Shown one piece after another: positions 1,920-29,421 of a DNA stretch of 29,830 nucleotides; positions within the stretch are counted from its first letter, which is position 1, and the number at the start of each line of letters is the position of its first letter. The notes under the pieces are model-generated. The model was given only the letters and a program-made list of their open reading frames with translations. It did no database searches and was not told the origin of the DNA. The translations under genes were made by a program, and so were the position numbers. This DNA is from a virus. The DNA lies in IMG/VR virus record IMGVR_UViG_3300046004_001145, positions 1-29,830 of that record. One strand, 5' to 3'.

Positions 1920-2791
1920 TACGCCCTCGTCCACTGGAAGGACGCGCCGCCGCCGGTCACATCGTCAGCGGTCTGCGTGGTTTCCGTGGTATCCACTTGG
2001 TCATCCACCGTCACGGTGTCAAAGTCGCGCGCGACCAGTGCCAGCGCGCCCTGCATGGCCTCTTCGGCCTCGCGGAAGTAGGCGTCGGCCTTCTCCTGCC
2101 ACGGCCCGCCCTGCATCGTCTGCGCCTCGCGGAAAATGAGGCCCAGCGTTCTCAGCGTCACCGGCCCCGTCAGCGCCGTGCCGCGGATGCAGCCAATCTG
2201 CCCGCAATACGCGCCCGTGGGCGTGGCACTGACCTTGATGCGTGCCCAGTAGAGCGGCGCGGAGCCATTGACGGCGCGCGTCACCCAGTCCTGCGGCATC
2301 TCCCAGCGCACATCCCCGCCGCGGGAGAACGGCTTCACGTTGAGGAACTGCGTCTCGTTCAGCGTGCCCACGCTCGTCCAGGCATCCGACCACACCTGCA
2401 CGGTCAGCGTGCCCGCCGCCGTCGCCACTCGGTCGAGCATGCGAATGGACAGCCCGCGGAACTGCTCCTGCGAGCCGATGTAGAGGAAGTCGCTTGACGG
2501 CGCGGCAAAGACGGTGCCTAGCGGCAGGCCGTCGACGCCAGCCGTCGTGGCGGCGCTGGTGTAGTCCACGTAGCTGCCGCCAGTGTAGCCCCACACCTGG
2601 GCAGGCGCACGGCGCGTCCGCAGGCGCTCGGGCACGTAGCCCGCCTTGGCCAGCGTCGGAAACGCCCAGTCCTCTAGCGCCTTCCGGCGCTTGGCCTGCC
2701 AATCCGTCTTGCCAAACTGCGTCAGGATGCTCTGCTCGTAGTCCTGCAAGTCCGAGTCAAATACCACGTCGTTCGGAAACCAGACGCTCAT
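1919..2791 (-). CDS. Putative neck or virion structural protein
   Basis: A 290-aa protein starting MSVWFPNDVVFDSDLQDYE. It has a helical N-terminal part (about 1-65), a long beta-rich centre (about 70-210, with segments like FLYIGSQEQFRGLSIRM and GTLTVQVWSDAW) and a helical, Thr- and Asp-rich tail. Its ATG overlaps the stop of the upstream glycosyltransferase fusion by four bases (ATGA). The place between capsid and tail genes suggests a head-tail adaptor or surface protein. I do not recognise the family, so the role is positional inference. Confidence 0.55.
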   Translation of the reverse strand: MSVWFPNDVVFDSDLQDYEQSILTQFGKTDWQAKRRKALEDWAFPTLAKAGYVPERLRTRRAPAQVWGYTGGSYVDYTSAATTAGVDGLPLGTVFAAPSSDFLYIGSQEQFRGLSIRMLDRVATAAGTLTVQVWSDAWTSVGTLNETQFLNVKPFSRGGDVRWEMPQDWVTRAVNGSAPLYWARIKVSATPTGAYCGQIGCIRGTALTGPVTLRTLGLIFREAQTMQGGPWQEKADAYFREAEEAMQGALALVARDFDTVTVDDQVDTTETTQTADDVTGGGASFQWTRA

Positions 2792-5709
2792 ACGGCCTCC
2801 AGCGGTTCCACGTCAATCGGCGGCTCGGGCGTGAAGTGCCCCAGCCATTCGGCCTGTTTCGCGGCCAGCAGCGCGGGAATCTGCCCCGCATGCCGCACCC
2901 AGACCCGCGTGGGAGCCGCGCGGCCCTGCAAGCCCTGCTGCCCTGCGGCAAAGGCCAACTCCACCTCAAACGCGCCTGTGACGCGCTTGACGGCCTGCTC
3001 GTAGAACGGCCGCGCCAACTGGTGATACTTGTCGGCGTAGTCGGGGAAGTGCGTCTCGAAGAGTTCGATGCACTTCCGCAGATGCTCGCGGCTCTGGTCG
3101 GTCGGCCCGTGCGATTCCATAATCCACGTGGCGAGGTTCAGGTGGTCGCGCAGTAACAGCAGGTAGTGCAGTCGGCGTTCCGGGAACACCTGCCCGTCGC
3201 GCTGCAAAAGCGGCAGGTTCCGATGCACGGCCTTCGTGCGCCGGATGGCTTCGTTCAGGTAGCCGGTGTGGGCAATGTCCGTGTCGTGCAGTTGCAGGGC
3301 GGGCACGATGTCGCCGTTGCAGTCGCCCATCTGCGGCTGCTCATGCACGCACCCGTAGAACTGGATGTCCGGCCGCTTGCGGAACACGCGGATGGGCGTA
3401 TCGAACGTGACGGGCATGTCCAATTGCAGGTGCTGCTGCTTCAGCCCGAAGCCCACAAAGACCGTCGAGTCGAGATACTTCCGCAGGCACTCCGGCTGCA
3501 TCAGGCGTTCGTCGGTGTCAATCCACATGAACCAATCGCCCGTCGCCGCCTGAAGCGTCGTGTTACGCGCCTCGGCAAAGCCACCGTGCAGGCCATGCAC
3601 CGGGCCGACCTCGATGATGCGGGTCCGCGGATACTCGTCGGCAATCGCGGCCAGCGTGTCAGGATTCACGCCGGTATTGGCTAGGATGATGTCGTCCGCA
3701 ATGTGCCAGATGGAACTCAGGCAGCGCCGGATGTCGATGGTTTCCCCGGCCAGAATTCCCACCGACAGCGTCGGCTTCGGCCGCGTCAGCGCCACGATAC
3801 GGTCAAGGTCACGCGCGCCAAACGCCTTCCGCGAGAACGTGCACGAGACAATCCAGTGCCCGATGCGGTTCCCGCGCGGCGTGACGCCCATATCGAGCAG
3901 CGAGACGTTCAGGGCATCCTGCCCGCCGAAGATGGCCTCCAAGTCACGCGGCGTGAAGCAGTGGACGTGCCCGCGTTTGATGACCATGTCTTGACTGGCG
4001 AGTTCCAGGAACGGCCCCATCGGCATGGTAGCCACCATGCGAGCGCCCGATGAGCATCGCTTCCGCACCGCTGTGAGGAACCCCGGCACGTTCGCAATGT
4101 GTTCGAGGAACTCGCCAATGAAGACCCCGTCAAACGGGCCGTAGGGCTTGAGGCTGTCCAGCGTGGCCTCATGGGCCGTGTGCGTCGTGTAGTCATACGC
4201 AGGCCCGACGAGGAACGTGCAGCGGTCAGCCACGCCCTGTTCCGCGGCGAACTCCTGCGCCACGCGGATATTCTCGGCCGCGTAGTCGAGGCCCACCACG
4301 CGCCGCGTGGGAGACGCCAGTGCCAGTGCCACGGCAAACGACCCGTTACCGCAGGCGAGGTCCAGCACGCATTCACTGCCCGCGAGCGCCTCGATGACTG
4401 GCGCGATGCGGCGGTTGTTGGCCATTTCCAGCCGCGGGTCCATCGCACGGGCGCTGTAATCCTCAGAGACCTGCTCCAGCCCGTCAATGACTCGCGTGGC
4501 GTCTTCCACTACATCTGGCCAGCCCTGCTCGGCCGCGAAGTGACGCACGGCCACGTAGTCGTCCCGCTGCTGAAGCTGCGCCAGAATGCCGCGCGGATTC
4601 GACCGCACCCGCGCCGTCAGACGCTGGGCCACCATCTGTTCCCACTCAGCGGCCACCTCGTTGAACCGGTAGTGGTCGACGTGCAGGAGGCCTTTCTCCA
4701 CGCGGTCCATCACGGGCGTCTGGCCCGTCAGGATGCCCTCCACAATGCCGATGCTCTCGGCCTGGTAGGCAGGGCTGTCGGCGTCGCCTTTGACCAGCCA
4801 GCCATGCGGCACGGTCTCCGGCAGCGCGCCCTTCCACGACCCGACGAACGGTGTGCCGCAGGCTTGCGCCTCAATCGCGGCGACGCAGGATGTCTCGGCA
4901 AAGTCTGCAATGCCCGGATACCACATGACCGCCGACGAGCGGATGGCCTCATACAGGGCAGACTTGCCCAGTTCGCCCAGCCACGTAATGCCGCCCACGG
5001 CGCGGTTGACGGCCTCCACCTGTTCGTCGTAGGCGGCGCACACGCGGCCCCAGCCTGAGGCGTCATACATGCTGTTATAGCGGCAGAGGTGCAACTCGGC
5101 GTCTGGCACGCGGCGCTTCAGTTCGGGCCACATGGCCAGCAGCGGCCGCAGGCCACGTTCCGGGCGGGTGATGTGAATCACCTTTTTGAGATTGCGAGTG
5201 CCTTCGAGCGGCACATAGGACGGGTCGAAGCCGTTCTTGCAGACCCAGCCAATCGGGGCCAGTTCCGGGGCCACGCCTTCCCACTGCTTGCGGTGGTAGT
5301 GCGACACGTAGGCCGACACGTCATAGGCCCACGCCAGCGCCATCGTCATATTCTTGGCGGCGCTGCCTGTCATCAAATCCTGATTCCACAGCACCCGCAG
5401 CGCGGCGTCGATGTTCGCGCCGAAAATGTGCGGCATGCGAAGGGCCACGAAGACATCCCACGCGGTGAACCGTGAGACATCGGCCAGCGCGTTCGTGGGG
5501 TGCCACGTCACGCCCCAGCGGTCAATCGGGCGCGCGTCCTTGTGGAGTTTCGTGGTGAAGATATGCACGCGGTGCCCACGCGCCTGAAGCGCACGGGCCA
5601 GCCCAAGGCAGGCCGACTCTGACCCGCCCAGCGATTCCGTGCCCGCCTGCACGCCGGGCGTGAACTCAACCGAGTCGATATGGAAGGCCCACGTGAGACT
5701 AGCGCGCAT
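2788..5709 (-). CDS. GT4 glycosyltransferase - SAM methyltransferase - GT2 glycosyltransferase fusion
   Basis: A 973-aa protein from the ATG at 5709, which has an AGGAG eight bases upstream; a longer frame from 5742 lacks this. Residues about 1-365 look like a GT-B family 4 glycosyltransferase: GGSES at 28-32 for the acceptor side and an E-x7-E at E272/E280 in FAETSCVAAIEAQACGTP. Residues about 425-630 are a class I methyltransferase: VLDLACGNGSF at 448-458, GLD at 473, EFLEHI at 533-538. Residues about 646-830 are a GT-A family 2 glycosyltransferase with its metal-binding DTD at 731-733, followed by a helical TPR-like tail. The gene lies between the capsid and neck genes. The likely job is building a methylated glycan on a virion protein or on the host surface; modified DNA is an alternative. 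Domains are confident, the substrate is unknown. Confidence 0.85.
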   Translation of the reverse strand: MRASLTWAFHIDSVEFTPGVQAGTESLGGSESACLGLARALQARGHRVHIFTTKLHKDARPIDRWGVTWHPTNALADVSRFTAWDVFVALRMPHIFGANIDAALRVLWNQDLMTGSAAKNMTMALAWAYDVSAYVSHYHRKQWEGVAPELAPIGWVCKNGFDPSYVPLEGTRNLKKVIHITRPERGLRPLLAMWPELKRRVPDAELHLCRYNSMYDASGWGRVCAAYDEQVEAVNRAVGGITWLGELGKSALYEAIRSSAVMWYPGIADFAETSCVAAIEAQACGTPFVGSWKGALPETVPHGWLVKGDADSPAYQAESIGIVEGILTGQTPVMDRVEKGLLHVDHYRFNEVAAEWEQMVAQRLTARVRSNPRGILAQLQQRDDYVAVRHFAAEQGWPDVVEDATRVIDGLEQVSEDYSARAMDPRLEMANNRRIAPVIEALAGSECVLDLACGNGSFAVALALASPTRRVVGLDYAAENIRVAQEFAAEQGVADRCTFLVGPAYDYTTHTAHEATLDSLKPYGPFDGVFIGEFLEHIANVPGFLTAVRKRCSSGARMVATMPMGPFLELASQDMVIKRGHVHCFTPRDLEAIFGGQDALNVSLLDMGVTPRGNRIGHWIVSCTFSRKAFGARDLDRIVALTRPKPTLSVGILAGETIDIRRCLSSIWHIADDIILANTGVNPDTLAAIADEYPRTRIIEVGPVHGLHGGFAEARNTTLQAATGDWFMWIDTDERLMQPECLRKYLDSTVFVGFGLKQQHLQLDMPVTFDTPIRVFRKRPDIQFYGCVHEQPQMGDCNGDIVPALQLHDTDIAHTGYLNEAIRRTKAVHRNLPLLQRDGQVFPERRLHYLLLLRDHLNLATWIMESHGPTDQSREHLRKCIELFETHFPDYADKYHQLARPFYEQAVKRVTGAFEVELAFAAGQQGLQGRAAPTRVWVRHAGQIPALLAAKQAEWLGHFTPEPPIDVEPLEAV

Positions 5710-5887
5710 CGGCCATCTCCTTGCGCGGGCGTCCGGGGCCACGGCGCAGCGGTTCGTCGACGGCGTCCATCACCTCAAGGCGCGGCCCAATCACGTCGGC
5801 CAGATACCGCTGCCACCGCTTAAACACATCCGGCCGCACATCCTGCGGCCCTCGCGCTCGGCAAATCTCTTCCAGAATTGGGTCCAT
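5699..5887 (-). CDS. Small protein with AT-hook-like C-terminus
   Basis: A 62-aa protein starting MDPILEEICRARG with a GGAG about seven bases before the ATG. The body is helical and the end carries RRGPGRPRKE, whose GRP core flanked by basic residues matches the AT-hook that binds the DNA minor groove. It overlaps the start of the glycosyltransferase fusion by 11 bases, so the two are probably translationally coupled. A DNA-binding hook among head genes could mean contact with packaged DNA or regulation; neither is shown. The frame is well supported by the ribosome site and compact spacing. Confidence 0.6.
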   Translation of the reverse strand: MDPILEEICRARGPQDVRPDVFKRWQRYLADVIGPRLEVMDAVDEPLRRGPGRPRKEMADAR

Positions 5888-23315: not shown

Positions 23316-23584
23316 TAGAACGACCGTCCTGTCAGCATCCGCTCGATGGATGCGCCAGTCATGAGCGACGCCGCGGTGGGCGAGGCATGGCGACGGCCCT
23401 GCCCGTCGACGTAATAGCGCGTCGTGGCACCTCGCCCAGCATACGGGCGCACCGTGATGCGCTGCACCCCTGGATAGGCTGAGTTGATTTCATAAATGGC
23501 CAATGCTCCGGTGCCGGTATCCTGCACGCCGGGGTTGGTTGCGTTGCCAATCGTGGTGTTCCGTGTCCAGTCCGTATTCGTCAT
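23315..23584 (-). CDS. Hypothetical early protein
   Basis: An 89-aa protein from the ATG at 23584 (MTNTDWTRNTTIGNATNPG) with GGAGG six bases upstream. It is rich in Thr, Gly and Asn with beta-type segments (ALAIYEINSAYPGVQRITV, TTRYYVDGQGRRH) and ends with a short helix. It is the first gene after the strongest promoter in the window, so it is probably made early and abundantly. No family recognised; early host-takeover proteins often look like this. Confidence 0.65.
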   Translation of the reverse strand: MTNTDWTRNTTIGNATNPGVQDTGTGALAIYEINSAYPGVQRITVRPYAGRGATTRYYVDGQGRRHASPTAASLMTGASIERMLTGRSF

Positions 23585-26176: not shown

Positions 26177-26829
26177 GCTGTCACTCCTTCTGGTTGCCGC
26201 CACGTCTGCACGGCCGCGTTGACCTCGGCCAGGAACGGCTCAAGGTAGTCCATCCGATACATCTCCACTCGAATCCTCGATACCACCTCCACCACGAGCT
26301 GCATGTGGGGCGGCATCGCGGGGCAATAGCTGGCGAGCCAGCAGGCATCAGCCCCCGTCACCAGCAGATTGTGCGTGCATTGATCGAGGTAGTCGCGCAC
26401 CATCGCCGTGGGTGCGTTCAGGTAGCGCCAGTGCGTCTTCGGCTTTGGCACCTTCAGTTCCACGATGTCGCCCTGGCTGGTGTAGCCGTCGATGCTGCAC
26501 CCGACCCACGGCACCTGCGTCGATTGCAGGAAGCCAGACTCAAAGATCAGCGTGTCCAGCCGCGTCTCCAAAGCCGACCGCGCCGCGCATTCCAGTTCAC
26601 TGCCGCGGACCATCCACGGCGTGACCACGGCATCCTCGGCACTCTGGCCCGTCAGCCGCTCCACCACCACCTGCGTCAGGTAGTCCTCACGAGCCGCGCT
26701 GGGCTTGCCGTCCTTCCGCGTCGCGGTGATGTCTGAGGCTCTCGACCCGGTCACGTAACCCACACGGGCCTGCAACCACTCCGGCGTGCCCTGCGCCGCC
26801 GGATGCACCGTATACCGGTCGGGCCTCAT
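26173..26829 (-). CDS. YqaJ/lambda-type recombination exonuclease
   Basis: A 218-aa protein from the ATG at 26829 (MRPDRYTVHPAAQGTPEWL), which overlaps the ERF stop by four bases. The YqaJ core is clear: GTPEWLQARVGYVTGSRAS at 14-32, RGSELE at 75-80, SIDG at 112-115 and VELKVPKP at 123-130, giving metal ligands D114, E124 and K126. The family degrades one strand of duplex DNA from the end to feed a single-strand annealing protein. Its pairing with ERF is a classic two-component recombination module. Confidence 0.85.
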   Translation of the reverse strand: MRPDRYTVHPAAQGTPEWLQARVGYVTGSRASDITATRKDGKPSAAREDYLTQVVVERLTGQSAEDAVVTPWMVRGSELECAARSALETRLDTLIFESGFLQSTQVPWVGCSIDGYTSQGDIVELKVPKPKTHWRYLNAPTAMVRDYLDQCTHNLLVTGADACWLASYCPAMPPHMQLVVEVVSRIRVEMYRMDYLEPFLAEVNAAVQTWRQPEGVTA

Positions 26830-27437
26830 GCCTGCACCTGTGCCGCACGGGCCTTGATGCCAGACAAGTGCTGGTCGTAGTGTGTCTTGGCGAAGGTCTT
26901 GTATTCCGGCTTGCTCGTCTTCCAGCACTCGGCCACCGCCGCGGACCCATTTTCTGCCAGCACTTCGAGGTCCAGCAGCCACTGCGAGAAGCCTTCCGGC
27001 TCGGTCACCACCACTTCGTGCGTCGTGGCGTCCGCATCCGGCGTGCCGTCGACGGGCACGCAGAACGCCTGAAACATCGCATACTTGTAGGCGGCAGACA
27101 TCGCCTTGTTCGTGGCCTTGTCTCCAGAGTCCATCGCCTCGCCCATCACGCGGACGGTATGCTTGGACCCATCTTCTGCGGCCACGATGTCGTATTCCAC
27201 ATCCAAAACCACATAAAACAGGGCCGTGCCACGCGCATTCGCCCGTTCAACTACCGTGCGTGACAGCACCCGTGGCAGGAGCATCAGCCCGTGCCGCGCC
27301 ATGACCGGCGATAGCGCGTTCATGACGTCGTCAATGCCCCGGAACCGGAAGCCTTGCGACTCGTTCTTCTGGCGCTTGCCCACGCCCACTTGCGCCAACT
27401 CTGCGGCCACCGCCGCAATTGCCTTGTAGACCTGCAT
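26826..27437 (-). CDS. erf: ERF-family single-strand annealing protein
   Basis: A 203-aa protein starting MQVYKAIAAVAAELAQVGVG. The ERF signature is seen in FRGIDDVMNALSPVMARHGL (about 32-51) and GEAMDSGDKATNKAMSAAYK (about 99-118). These proteins form rings that anneal complementary strands during phage recombination and circularisation. GGAGGG lies three bases before the ATG. The exonuclease and an SSB-like gene follow with overlaps, so the three are one cassette. Length is typical for the family. Confidence 0.85.
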   Translation of the reverse strand: MQVYKAIAAVAAELAQVGVGKRQKNESQGFRFRGIDDVMNALSPVMARHGLMLLPRVLSRTVVERANARGTALFYVVLDVEYDIVAAEDGSKHTVRVMGEAMDSGDKATNKAMSAAYKYAMFQAFCVPVDGTPDADATTHEVVVTEPEGFSQWLLDLEVLAENGSAAVAECWKTSKPEYKTFAKTHYDQHLSGIKARAAQVQA

Positions 27438-27455
27438 ATGCCCTCCGCTGTCGTT

Positions 27456-27560
27456 TTAGAATGCGCCCAATGCCACCAGTGTCCAGAAGGCCATGATGGG
27501 TCCAACCACCACGCCAAACACCAGCGCCTCGCCCCACGTCGGTTCTTTCGGTGTCCTCAT
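27456..27560 (-). CDS. 34-aa membrane peptide
   Basis: The ATG at 27560 overlaps the HTH gene's stop by four bases, with GGAGG four bases upstream. The peptide MRTPKEPTWGEALVFGVVVG continues into PIMAFWTLVALGAF, one transmembrane helix. The larger frame to 27800 is a shadow. The ribosome site and coupling give good support despite the small size. Confidence 0.6.
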   Translation of the reverse strand: MRTPKEPTWGEALVFGVVVGPIMAFWTLVALGAF

Positions 27561-27772
27561 TGTGCCTCCTGCACTTTGCGCGGCCGTCCCGTCTTGCGGC
27601 GCGGCCGGTTCTGGATGGCCTCGCGGTCGGCAGGCGTCAGGATGCAGACGCCGCCAAACTTGGCCAGCGTCAGCCCCGTGGCCTGCACGAGCTGATGCAC
27701 CCGCGCGCGGGTCACCCCCAGCTCGGCCGCATACTCTTTCATGGTCATTGCCCCGTCTGGTCGATTGTCCAT
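27557..27772 (-). CDS. Small helix-turn-helix DNA-binding protein
   Basis: A 71-aa protein. TMKEYAAELGVTRARVHQLV (about 10-29) is a helix-turn-helix of the excisionase/MerR-like type, and the end is very basic (NRPRRKTGRPRK), also with a GRP hook. Three in-frame ATG codons exist (27772, 27748, 27742). The first lies only seven bases from the -10 of the promoter at 27780, so it would be read from a leaderless mRNA; the second has GGGG upstream. As first gene after the terminator it may regulate the recombination block. Confidence 0.7.
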   Translation of the reverse strand: MDNRPDGAMTMKEYAAELGVTRARVHQLVQATGLTLAKFGGVCILTPADREAIQNRPRRKTGRPRKVQEAQ

Positions 27773-27779
27773 GCGAATT

Positions 27780-27808
27780 ACTATACACCATGCAAGACAT
27801 CAGTGCAA
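27780..27808 (-). promoter_or_regulatory. Promoter TTGCAC-N17-TATAGT abutting the HTH gene
   Basis: On the minus strand TTGCAC and TATAGT are exactly 17 bases apart. The -35 starts five bases after the terminator U-tract, so transcription restarts where the previous unit ends. The predicted +1 falls on or next to the first ATG. Confidence 0.6.
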
Positions 27809-27813
27809 GCGAT

Positions 27814-27851
27814 AAAAAAGCCCCGGCACCGTTGGGCGGCAGTGCCGGGGC
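27814..27851 (-). terminator. Rho-independent terminator
   Basis: GCCCCGGCAC and GTGCCGGGGC form a perfect 10-bp G/C-rich stem around a 12-base loop, followed directly by six U on the minus strand. It ends the rightmost transcription unit and the candidate small RNA. There is no U-tract in the plus direction. Confidence 0.9.
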
Positions 27852-27890
27852 AGGCGTGCGGAGGACACGCGCATTCGCGGAGGGCGAATG
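27814..27890 (-). ncRNA. Candidate small RNA with two CCUCC-loop hairpins
   Basis: Between the promoter at 27896 and the terminator U-tract lies a stretch of about 77 bases that is all structure. Hairpin 1 (27872-27890) is CATTCGC/GCGAATG with loop CCTCC. Hairpin 2 (27854-27870) is GCGTG/CACGC with loop TCCTCCG. Hairpin 3 is the terminator. The loops copy the anti-Shine-Dalgarno sequence of 16S rRNA and could pair with the GGAGG sites common in this genome. There is no credible ORF. Confidence 0.55.
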
Positions 27891-27895
27891 TCTCG

Positions 27896-27904
27896 ACTAT
27901 ACCA
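27896..27904 (-). promoter_or_regulatory. Extended -10 promoter TGGTATAGT
   Basis: TGGTATAGTCGAGAC on the minus strand, 12 of 15 positions shared with the promoter at 25751. The TGG gives an extended -10; no good -35 is seen. The predicted +1 (27889-27890) is the first base of the CCUCC hairpin. It lies ten bases after the DUF4406 gene's stop codon. Confidence 0.55.
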
Positions 27905-27913
27905 AAGTTTGCG

Positions 27914-28255
27914 TTAATGCACCACGCCAGACGTCGGCGGCGCAATGGCTGGCGGCTCGGCCTGCATCGGGGCCACAAAGACCGGCAACCCGAGGCACAG
28001 GGCCAGCCAGAGTTCCCAGCGCGCGCCCCGTGAGGCTTCCCAGCTGGGCAGCAGCACGATGGCGTCTGCCAAGCGCAGATGCCACAGGCAGACCAGCAGG
28101 CACCGCCACCACGGCCGTGTGATGGGATTCAGCGTTGCTGGGTTGATGGCCGTAATGCCCCGCTGCCGCAGGCATTCTTCCATGGCATAGAACGCTGGGT
28201 GGTTCCAGCTCGGCAGGCCCGTCATGGGTCCCGCGATATAGACCAGCGGCGTCAC
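27914..28255 (-). CDS. DUF4406 / nucleoside deoxyribosyltransferase-like protein
   Basis: A 113-aa protein. YIAGPMTGLPSWNHPAF at 6-22 is the nucleotide-binding start of the DUF4406/nucleoside 2-deoxyribosyltransferase fold, then AINPA at 36-40 and LADAIVLLPSWEASRGARWE with the presumed catalytic Glu at 81. Related enzymes exchange or cleave nucleobases. Its start overlaps the deoxynucleotide kinase stop by four bases, and together they suggest work on the nucleotide pool. The actual substrate is unknown. Confidence 0.75.
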   Translation of the reverse strand: MTPLVYIAGPMTGLPSWNHPAFYAMEECLRQRGITAINPATLNPITRPWWRCLLVCLWHLRLADAIVLLPSWEASRGARWELWLALCLGLPVFVAPMQAEPPAIAPPTSGVVH

Positions 28256-28833
28256 TGGAACCTCCGTCGCGCGCGGTCTGGGTCAAACGCTCGGTCGACG
28301 AGCCGAATCAGCCGGTCGCGCGCCTCGTCCTGGCGCGCCTCGATGTTGTCGATGATGGCGTCAAACGTGAAGCCGTTCAGCGAGGTCTCGCTGGCGTGGC
28401 CCGCATCTCGGTCGGTCGTGATGACCCGCGAGCCGTCCGCATGCCACCGCCGCACGTCCACGCAGATGCCCCCGTAGGCGCGAATGAACGCGGCCTCGTT
28501 AGGGAACCGGAGATCCGGAATCACGACCAGCAGCCCCTCCGGCGCGCTCTCCAGCCACTCATGGATCGTCCACGCCACAATGCGCACCCACGTGTCCGGG
28601 TCATGCGCGCGGCCCTCCATGCCGAGCCGTTGCAGGAGTGGCCCGTCCTTGGTCGTCATGCCGTAGTCGGCCCGTGCCAGCACCTTCACCGCGTCGGCAA
28701 AGCCCAAGCGGCGGCTGTTGCCGTAGTGGTTGAGCAGGGCATCGGTCAGCATGTCCTTGCCCTGCCGCGCTTTGTGTCCGAGGCCCACGAGGGCCACGCC
28801 GTCAAGATCCGGCCAAGTCGTCGTCGTCATCAT
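28252..28833 (-). CDS. Deoxynucleoside monophosphate kinase
   Basis: A 193-aa protein. The P-loop-like GLGHKARQGKD (17-27) and the conserved IPDLRFPNEA (105-114) match T4 gene 1-type dNMP kinases, which phosphorylate dNMPs to dNDPs for phage DNA synthesis. A lid-like MEGRAHDPDTWVRI follows the GPLLQRLG segment, as in the family. The ATG at 28833 overlaps the upstream gene by 32 bases; a GTG at 28797 is an alternative start. Many members phosphorylate modified nucleotides, which may relate to the methyltransferase, but this is not shown. Confidence 0.8.
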   Translation of the reverse strand: MMTTTTWPDLDGVALVGLGHKARQGKDMLTDALLNHYGNSRRLGFADAVKVLARADYGMTTKDGPLLQRLGMEGRAHDPDTWVRIVAWTIHEWLESAPEGLLVVIPDLRFPNEAAFIRAYGGICVDVRRWHADGSRVITTDRDAGHASETSLNGFTFDAIIDNIEARQDEARDRLIRLVDRAFDPDRARRRFQ

Positions 28834-28999
28834 CCGTGAGTCCGTCAGCCCGTCGTGCGACGGCCATAATGCCCGGGTAGAGCTGGAGCGTCACCCAATC
28901 CAGTGCCCGCAGGATGCCCACGGCCAGCGCATGCAGCAGGCAGATGCCCACCCACACCACGGCCATCGGCGCATACAGCATAGCCCAGAGCAGGCGCAT
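28802..28999 (-). CDS. Small membrane protein with acidic tail
   Basis: A 65-aa protein from the ATG at 28999, two bases after the upstream stop. MRLLWAMLYAPMAVVWVGIC and a further hydrophobic run (LLHALAVGILRALDW) form one or two membrane helices. The end carries a run of six Asp. The longer frame to 29107 is a shadow of the neighbouring gene. Function unknown; the run of Asp may chelate metal or mimic nucleic acid charge. Confidence 0.6.
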   Translation of the reverse strand: MRLLWAMLYAPMAVVWVGICLLHALAVGILRALDWVTLQLYPGIMAVARRADGLTDDDDDDLAGS

Positions 29000-29001
29000 G
29001 G

Positions 29002-29421
29002 TTAGGCCCGCATCAGCAGGGAATGCGACCTGAACTGCCGCAGCCGCAGATAGTCTGGCACGAAGAGGTAGCACCGCCCGTCGCCGTCGATGATGCGCCC
29101 CGCCCACAGGAAGGCAGCATGCCCGTCAGGCCCGTCAATGTCCGTGCAATAGAGGATGCCTGTGTCCGCGTGCAGGTCCGGTCGGCGTTTCACGCGCGTC
29201 TTGATGCCCAGCCGAGACGCCGCGTGGCGAAACTCGGCCCACGGGGCCACGCCTTGCGCCAGCACGCTGGCTGGGTCGTCGAAGGCGGCAAAGGCCGTGG
29301 GCCAGTCGACGCCGCACAGCATGGCCAGTGAGGCCACCGCGCAGTCGCCATGCCCCTGCTGCTGCGGCACAAACCGCACCAGATGCGGGGGACTGCCTAC
29401 CAGCGTGCTGGGTCGAGCCAT
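29002..29421 (-). CDS. C39-like cysteine peptidase-fold protein
   Basis: A 139-aa protein. QQGHGDCAVASLAMLCGVDW (21-40) places a Cys27 at a helix start after the oxyanion Gln, and DGHAAFLWAGRIIDGDG (99-115) supplies His101 and an Asp, which is the C39/papain-like layout. The family includes bacteriocin-processing peptidases and inactive relatives. It lies in the early block with no ABC transporter, so secretion is unlikely. It may cleave a host protein or cell-wall peptide; the substrate is unknown. It overlaps its upstream neighbour by 25 bases. Confidence 0.65.
   Translation of the reverse strand: MARPSTLVGSPPHLVRFVPQQQGHGDCAVASLAMLCGVDWPTAFAAFDDPASVLAQGVAPWAEFRHAASRLGIKTRVKRRPDLHADTGILYCTDIDGPDGHAAFLWAGRIIDGDGRCYLFVPDYLRLRQFRSHSLLMRA

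Follow-up and report, generated by a model that had tools for sequence, protein, structure and literature searches.

What does a short intergenic segment ahead of a phage recombinase gene do, when it seems to bear a promoter and a terminator of its own and presents the anti-Shine-Dalgarno sequence CCUCC in the loops of two hairpins? The segment lies in a 29,830-base record of an environmental phage with a G+C content of 64% (the window, by which we mean the whole stretch of DNA analysed), in which all the recognised genes, coding for the terminase, portal, Erf, YqaJ and a replication initiator, are on the minus strand. A 984-aa ORF in the window (2788-5742, minus strand) also has weak matches to glycosyltransferases in one part and to methyltransferases in another. 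An earlier note on this DNA had proposed that the segment encodes a small RNA acting as a global translation switch between early and late genes. At the level of sequence the small-RNA unit is real and conserved, and the RNA is probably more specific than that proposal holds.

Architecture of the small-RNA unit

The order of elements on the minus strand is DUF4406 gene, small RNA, HTH gene, a 34-aa ORF and erf. The RNA, of about 78 nt with boundaries predicted at 27814..27891, is preceded by an extended -10 element (TGGTATAGT, 27896..27904, with TATAGT at 27901-27896), and its transcription is predicted to start at about 27889-27891. Its first hairpin, CATTCGC-CCTCC-GCGAATG (27872..27890), is followed by a second, GCGTGT-CCTCC-GCACGC (27854..27870), and by an intrinsic terminator (27814..27851) consisting of a stem (27851-27820) and a run of six T (27819-27814). 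The extended -10, the two perfect hairpins with CCUCC loops, the terminator and the six T, all described in the earlier note, were confirmed on the minus strand with two amendments: the terminator scan gives a stem of 12 pairs, not 10, and the second loop, noted as UCCUCCG, is likewise CCUCC given a U-G pair. An 81-nt segment is predicted to fold into exactly these two CCUCC hairpins and the terminator hairpin at -44.1 kcal/mol, against a mean of -25.76 for shuffled sequences (sd 2.65; z -6.92), with none of 200 shuffles as good. The twin-loop pattern (two CCTCC-loop hairpins with stems of at least 5 and loops 12-40 bases apart) occurs once in the window and, among loci L001-L082, otherwise only in the same RNA of close relatives. 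CCTCC in itself is not overrepresented in the window, with 45 occurrences observed against 65 expected. The promoter is called from the extended -10 by itself, as the scan of 26500-29000 for sigma-70 consensus promoters gave none.

The region had also been described as having no ORF. Mechanical ORFs do cross it, including those at 27781-27978 on the minus strand (65 aa) and at 27493-28122 (209 aa) and 27551-28033 (160 aa) on the plus strand, and there is no evidence that any of them is a gene. An extra T in the T run of one relative (L005, below) means that any frame crossing this run is shifted there.

Directly past the terminator and ahead of the HTH gene we noticed by eye a promoter-like pair, TTGCAC-17-TATAGT (27780..27808, minus strand), which did not pass the consensus promoter scan. 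The gene that follows (27557..27772, minus strand) encodes a probable helix-turn-helix protein of 71 aa; the Pfam HTH matches of the window's protein are all below the cut-off, and HTH_17 exceeds it in one of four homologues (L023). A -10-like box stands 7 nt before the ATG in the window and 6-7 nt before it across four lineages, and the mRNA of the HTH gene may hence be leaderless and independent of Shine-Dalgarno pairing. A 34-aa ORF of our own gene calling (27456..27560, minus strand) separates the HTH gene from erf. Its Shine-Dalgarno sequence (window 27560, minus strand) lies in a predicted hairpin, GTGC-AGGAG-GCAC, that could form a kissing contact with hairpin 2 of the RNA. Finally, erf itself (26826..27437, minus strand) encodes a single-strand DNA-annealing recombinase of the ERF superfamily (PHROG 155, E 1.3e-33; PF04404, E 2.5e-20). 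Its Shine-Dalgarno region, GCGGAGGGC (27440..27448, minus strand), is the predicted target of the RNA: GCCCUCCGC in hairpin 1 (27885-27877) is its exact 9-base complement, and the loop of hairpin 2 fits the erf start site together with several others.

Conservation among close relatives

A 111-base query covering the RNA matches five of eight related records, four at 100% and one (L005) at 99%. Of these five, L002, L003 and L006 do not differ from the window anywhere in the 5.3 kb compared and are uninformative on conservation. A fourth, L004, is a mosaic with 95.9% overall identity, in which identical runs of 1065 and 836 bases stand between diverged stretches; erf lies within the longer run, which points to recent recombination at this place. 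L005 has 92.6% identity to the window over 5.3 kb, yet a stretch of 131 window bases (-37 to +94 relative to 27891) is conserved in full, the one difference being the additional T in the T run; only one unchanged run in this comparison is longer. The block starts 37 bases before the RNA, takes in the extended -10 and ends beyond the terminator, as would fit a functional unit extending from promoter to terminator, although the segment may instead have been exchanged recently. The RNA and the erf Shine-Dalgarno region are both invariant among the close relatives compared, so that there is no covariation there with which to test the pairing. The proposal of a discrete, conserved and terminated unit with anti-Shine-Dalgarno loops nevertheless stands on fold, conservation and pairing, and these loops probably pair with ribosome-binding sites.

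Unrelated putative RNAs in the same position of diverged lineages

A search with Erf recovered relatives at 61-64% identity from three further lineages, namely L019/L020/L021 (one lineage), L022 and L023. All belong to the phage group of the window and have in common with it the kinase (44-51% identity), YqaJ (52-54%) and the replication gene (44-49%); L022 and L023 share with it a portal of 70-71% and a capsid of 85-91% identity. Each of the diverged lineages has a short unit between a kinase or DUF4406 gene and the HTH gene, with a -10-like box, a hairpin and then T. With the boundaries in these three lineages set by eye, the putative RNAs across lineages are 70-82 nt long and all have exposed C/U-rich stretches. 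The sequences are unrelated to that of the window RNA, which, used as a query, matched none of three records of the diverged lineages. The predicted folds are also distinct: L022 forms a single 20-pair hairpin with an 18-nt pyrimidine loop and a weak T run (AUUUUC), L023 a single-stranded 5' arm followed by a terminator, and L019 a small hairpin followed by a terminator, with the C-rich stretch in the 11-nt terminator loop. The distance from the RNA start to the erf start on the same strand is 454, 528, 456 and 519 bases in the window, L022, L023 and L019, respectively, and this order is kept for all figures below. The relation to the target appears to have been kept while both sequence and fold were replaced, an unusual feature of this system.

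By eye, we also saw possible further promoters past the HTH gene in two of these records: TAGACA-17-TATAGT in L022, with TTTGGTATAGT as in the promoter of the window RNA, and one with TTGACA and less regular spacing in L020. A similar leader hairpin, GTCGGC...GCCGAC, comes after the possible second promoter in both.

Searches with the HTH protein, Erf, the product of the gene at 29002 and the capsid, and with the twin-loop DNA pattern, yielded no fifth lineage; one of the Erf searches covered the best 80 of 370 matches. An HTH gene was sought in 32 genome loci from a further Erf search, these being checked for this gene only, and none was found at E 0.05. The absence of erf from all 12 capsid-related records proves little, as these records are 4.6-21.4 kb long. 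Pattern matches outside the group, in L245 and L247, were rejected, as neither has a match to any of 16 window proteins in the stretch of DNA examined and by eye both read like coding sequence. A record with a distant HTH relative (L012) was likewise set aside, as it lacks an erf match and shows, on visual inspection, no RNA of this kind ahead of the HTH relative. Among loci L001-L082 and in the pattern search the twin CCUCC loops turned up only in the close group.

Predicted pairing of each RNA with its own erf start site

On visual inspection, the exposed stretch of each RNA looked complementary to the erf start site. The longest exact complement between each RNA and its own erf site is 9 (GCCCTCCGC), 9 (CTCCTCCCC), 14 (CCATCGTTCCCCCT) and 6 bases, and in L023 it runs through the erf start codon. 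When the four RNAs are compared at each erf site, the longest match is that of the resident RNA in the window, L022 and L023, but not in L019. We then ranked all gene starts by pairing energy corrected for accessibility, using regions from -20 to +6 around starts called by our own simple gene caller and the opening cost of both RNAs; one gene too near a contig end was dropped in each of three contigs. By this measure erf ranks first in every lineage (1 of 44, 1 of 56, 1 of 53 and 1 of 23 genes), with energies of -9.4, -14.9, -18.6 and -10.1.

Simpler measures give a less tidy picture, most of all in L019. With the plain duplex energy of the exposed stretches erf ranks 1 and 2 of 45 for the two window loops, 2 of 57 in L022, 1 of 53 in L023 and only 7 of 24 in L019. 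Of all 33-base windows on both strands, those that equal or exceed the erf site in binding number 8 of 5397 (either window loop), 15 of 6228 (L022), 2 of 5682 (L023) and 124 of 2114 (L019). When genes are ranked by their longest exact match anywhere in the RNA, erf leads in L023 only. Its 9 bases in the window are exceeded by the 10 of the gene that begins at 23584 and equalled by another gene; in L022 one gene surpasses it with 10 bases to 9, and in L019, where erf reaches 6, other genes reach 10, 10 and 9. Besides erf, the second window loop matches the starts of three small genes, which begin at 23584, 21604 and 21489.

The pairing figures are somewhat weakened by the fact that erf was singled out by eye on the same data, from four lineages, before testing, and they need to be read together with several controls. 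When the RNAs were swapped between lineages, the foreign RNAs ranked erf 13, 11 and 12 in L022 and 13, 4 and 5 in L023, as against 2, 11 and 1 in the window and 7, 1 and 2 in L019, where the erf site binds two foreign RNAs (-13.0 and -11.8) better than its own (-10.1). Lineage specificity is therefore clear in L022 and L023 and slight in the window, and L019 shows none. Among 60 mononucleotide shuffles of each RNA, 11, 6, 1 and 11 ranked erf first and 5, 0, 0 and 5 reached the real energy, so that C-rich composition accounts for part of the effect in two lineages. Natural segments of the same length from the same contigs ranked erf first in just 3, 2, 1 and 0 of 80 cases (6 of 320), and none of the 320 reached the real erf energy. 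The bare 16S-tail sequence ranks erf 13, 6, 16 and 5, the window rank being a tie at zero as the tail forms no helix at erf there.

A last control concerned complementary words upstream of erf more generally, on the erf strand and in 56 of 68 loci (the 12 left out include some duplicates). Inside the group a match of at least 9 bases lies within the RNA in five of six loci, L019 having none. Outside the group one of 50 loci (L043), two of which have less than 400 bases upstream, has a match of at least 9 bases 400-500 bases upstream; it stands in apparent coding sequence and has no T run. Examination of the erf strand in 35 of the 79 loci from the best 80 of 370 Erf matches (one without a start) gave a single match, L124, which is on the contig of L043. 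Counted on both strands, 9-base words antisense to the erf site number 8 in the window (one in the RNA), 7 in L022 (one in the RNA), 9 in L023 (six in the RNA, every one of them part of the 14-base match) and 7 in L019 (none in the RNA). A plain 9-base match is weak evidence by itself, and the case is carried by the accessibility ranking, the swaps and shuffles and the natural-segment control. The pairing preference is, like the sequence, fold, conservation and position of the unit, a direct result of computation.

Comparison with known regulatory RNAs

At the gathering cut-off no Rfam family matches the window RNA, and none of the ten matches up to E 10 is above its cut-off. The two that score highest in bits, Esr41 (25.2 bits, cut-off 102) and anti-hemB (22.7 bits, cut-off 49.5), were rejected, the clearest agreement in both alignments being at the terminator; the sX13 model gives 19.4 bits (E 0.12) against a cut-off of 50. 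The C4 family and an ar14-type family, both of which we take to be represented in Rfam, are absent among the ten. C4 RNA measures about 77 nt, and its gene precedes that of its target on the same strand. In phages P1 and P7 it is an antisense RNA that prevents translation by pairing around a ribosome-binding site, probably through bases exposed in loops (PMC12197685). The window RNA is like C4 in being upstream of its predicted target on the same strand and in having loops complementary to the ribosome-binding site of that target; unlike C4, its best predicted target is erf and not an antirepressor operon, and it has its own predicted terminator, with the target under a separate predicted promoter. 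The sar RNA of P22 blocks the translation start of a phage gene and is antisense to ant (PMC12197685), whereas the window RNA is encoded apart from its predicted target and on the same strand.

The ar14 or 'cuckoo' RNAs of alpha-proteobacteria, such as NfeR1, present an anti-Shine-Dalgarno motif in the unpaired parts of hairpins with variable stems (PMC10746234). The hairpins of the window RNA similarly bear such a motif unpaired; but that source gives the motif CCUCCUCCC in three hairpins, as against CCUCC in two here, and the ar14 RNAs act on many transporter mRNAs, as against a predicted target in a neighboring gene. Similarly, the sX13 RNA of Xanthomonas is described as having three stems with C-rich loops and repressing mRNAs with G-rich motifs near the start (PMC3771888); it is bacterial, with many targets and C4/C5 loops, in contrast to a phage RNA with CCUCC loops. 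The window RNA thus resembles C4 in its layout and putative mechanism, and ar14/cuckoo RNAs and sX13 in loop chemistry. Its sequence features do not place it in any of these three families, the upstream same-strand layout of C4 being the one defining trait that it appears to share.

A proposed mechanism and its alternatives

We lean, with some reserve, towards the interpretation that a separate small RNA encoded upstream of its target blocks the translation of erf. A promoter just after the DUF4406 gene would drive synthesis of the RNA of about 78 nt, ending at its own terminator, and this RNA would act on the mRNA of what is predicted to be the next operon, comprising the HTH gene, the small ORF and erf. 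The CCUCC loop of hairpin 1 and its closing base pairs would pair with the erf Shine-Dalgarno region, barring the 30S subunit, and less Erf would be made; the presumed purpose of such repression would be to limit or time recombination. Hairpin 2 might provide a second contact with erf or reach the few other phage start sites that its loop fits. As the first gene of this mRNA, the HTH gene would be spared, since a probably leaderless message needs no Shine-Dalgarno pairing.

The fit of loop 2 to those other genes, the exposed C/U-rich stretches of all four RNAs and the occasional preference of mononucleotide-shuffled RNAs for erf would also agree with a broad anti-Shine-Dalgarno riboregulator, in which the loops mimic the 16S anti-Shine-Dalgarno sequence and lower many Shine-Dalgarno-led phage or host mRNAs, the leaderless HTH gene escaping. 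We regard this as unlikely, given that erf is the best accessibility-corrected target in four of four lineages, that the bare 16S tail fails to single it out, and that the 14-base match of L023 spans the Shine-Dalgarno region and continues into the start codon, which generic anti-Shine-Dalgarno pairing does not need. On the first and last of these counts the global switch between early and late genes suggested in the earlier note is not our main reading either. The 14-base match, hard to obtain by chance, speaks equally against a small RNA directed at host mRNAs with its fit to erf arising from shared Shine-Dalgarno sequence, as does the fact that each RNA fits its own neighboring phage gene best once accessibility counts; phage RNAs acting on host genes do exist, for instance PreS on dnaN (PMC12197685), yet here we judge such a role improbable. 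A strong predicted terminator does stand between two transcription units, and the element could be a mere terminator or insulator with two incidental hairpins. That the unchanged block takes in the promoter and hairpins as well, together with the accessibility-corrected pairing and the natural-segment result, makes us very doubtful of this.

Implications

In the searched text of open-licence papers we found neither RNA control of a phage single-strand-annealing recombinase nor a phage RNA aimed at a recombinase; the main text of a 2025 review of phage small RNAs contains no word beginning 'recombin' (PMC12197685). We give about an even chance to the wider proposal that a regulatory RNA has here been kept by its place and its partner and not by its sequence, with four lineages each having an RNA of its own fold fitted to its own erf start. 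If true, the four RNAs would constitute a fast-evolving antisense brake on phage recombination. Single-strand-annealing recombinases drive phage mosaicism, and such a brake would therefore bear on the speed at which phage genes are reshuffled. The case also suggests that small RNAs may be found by conserved place and fit to a target where an Rfam search finds nothing.
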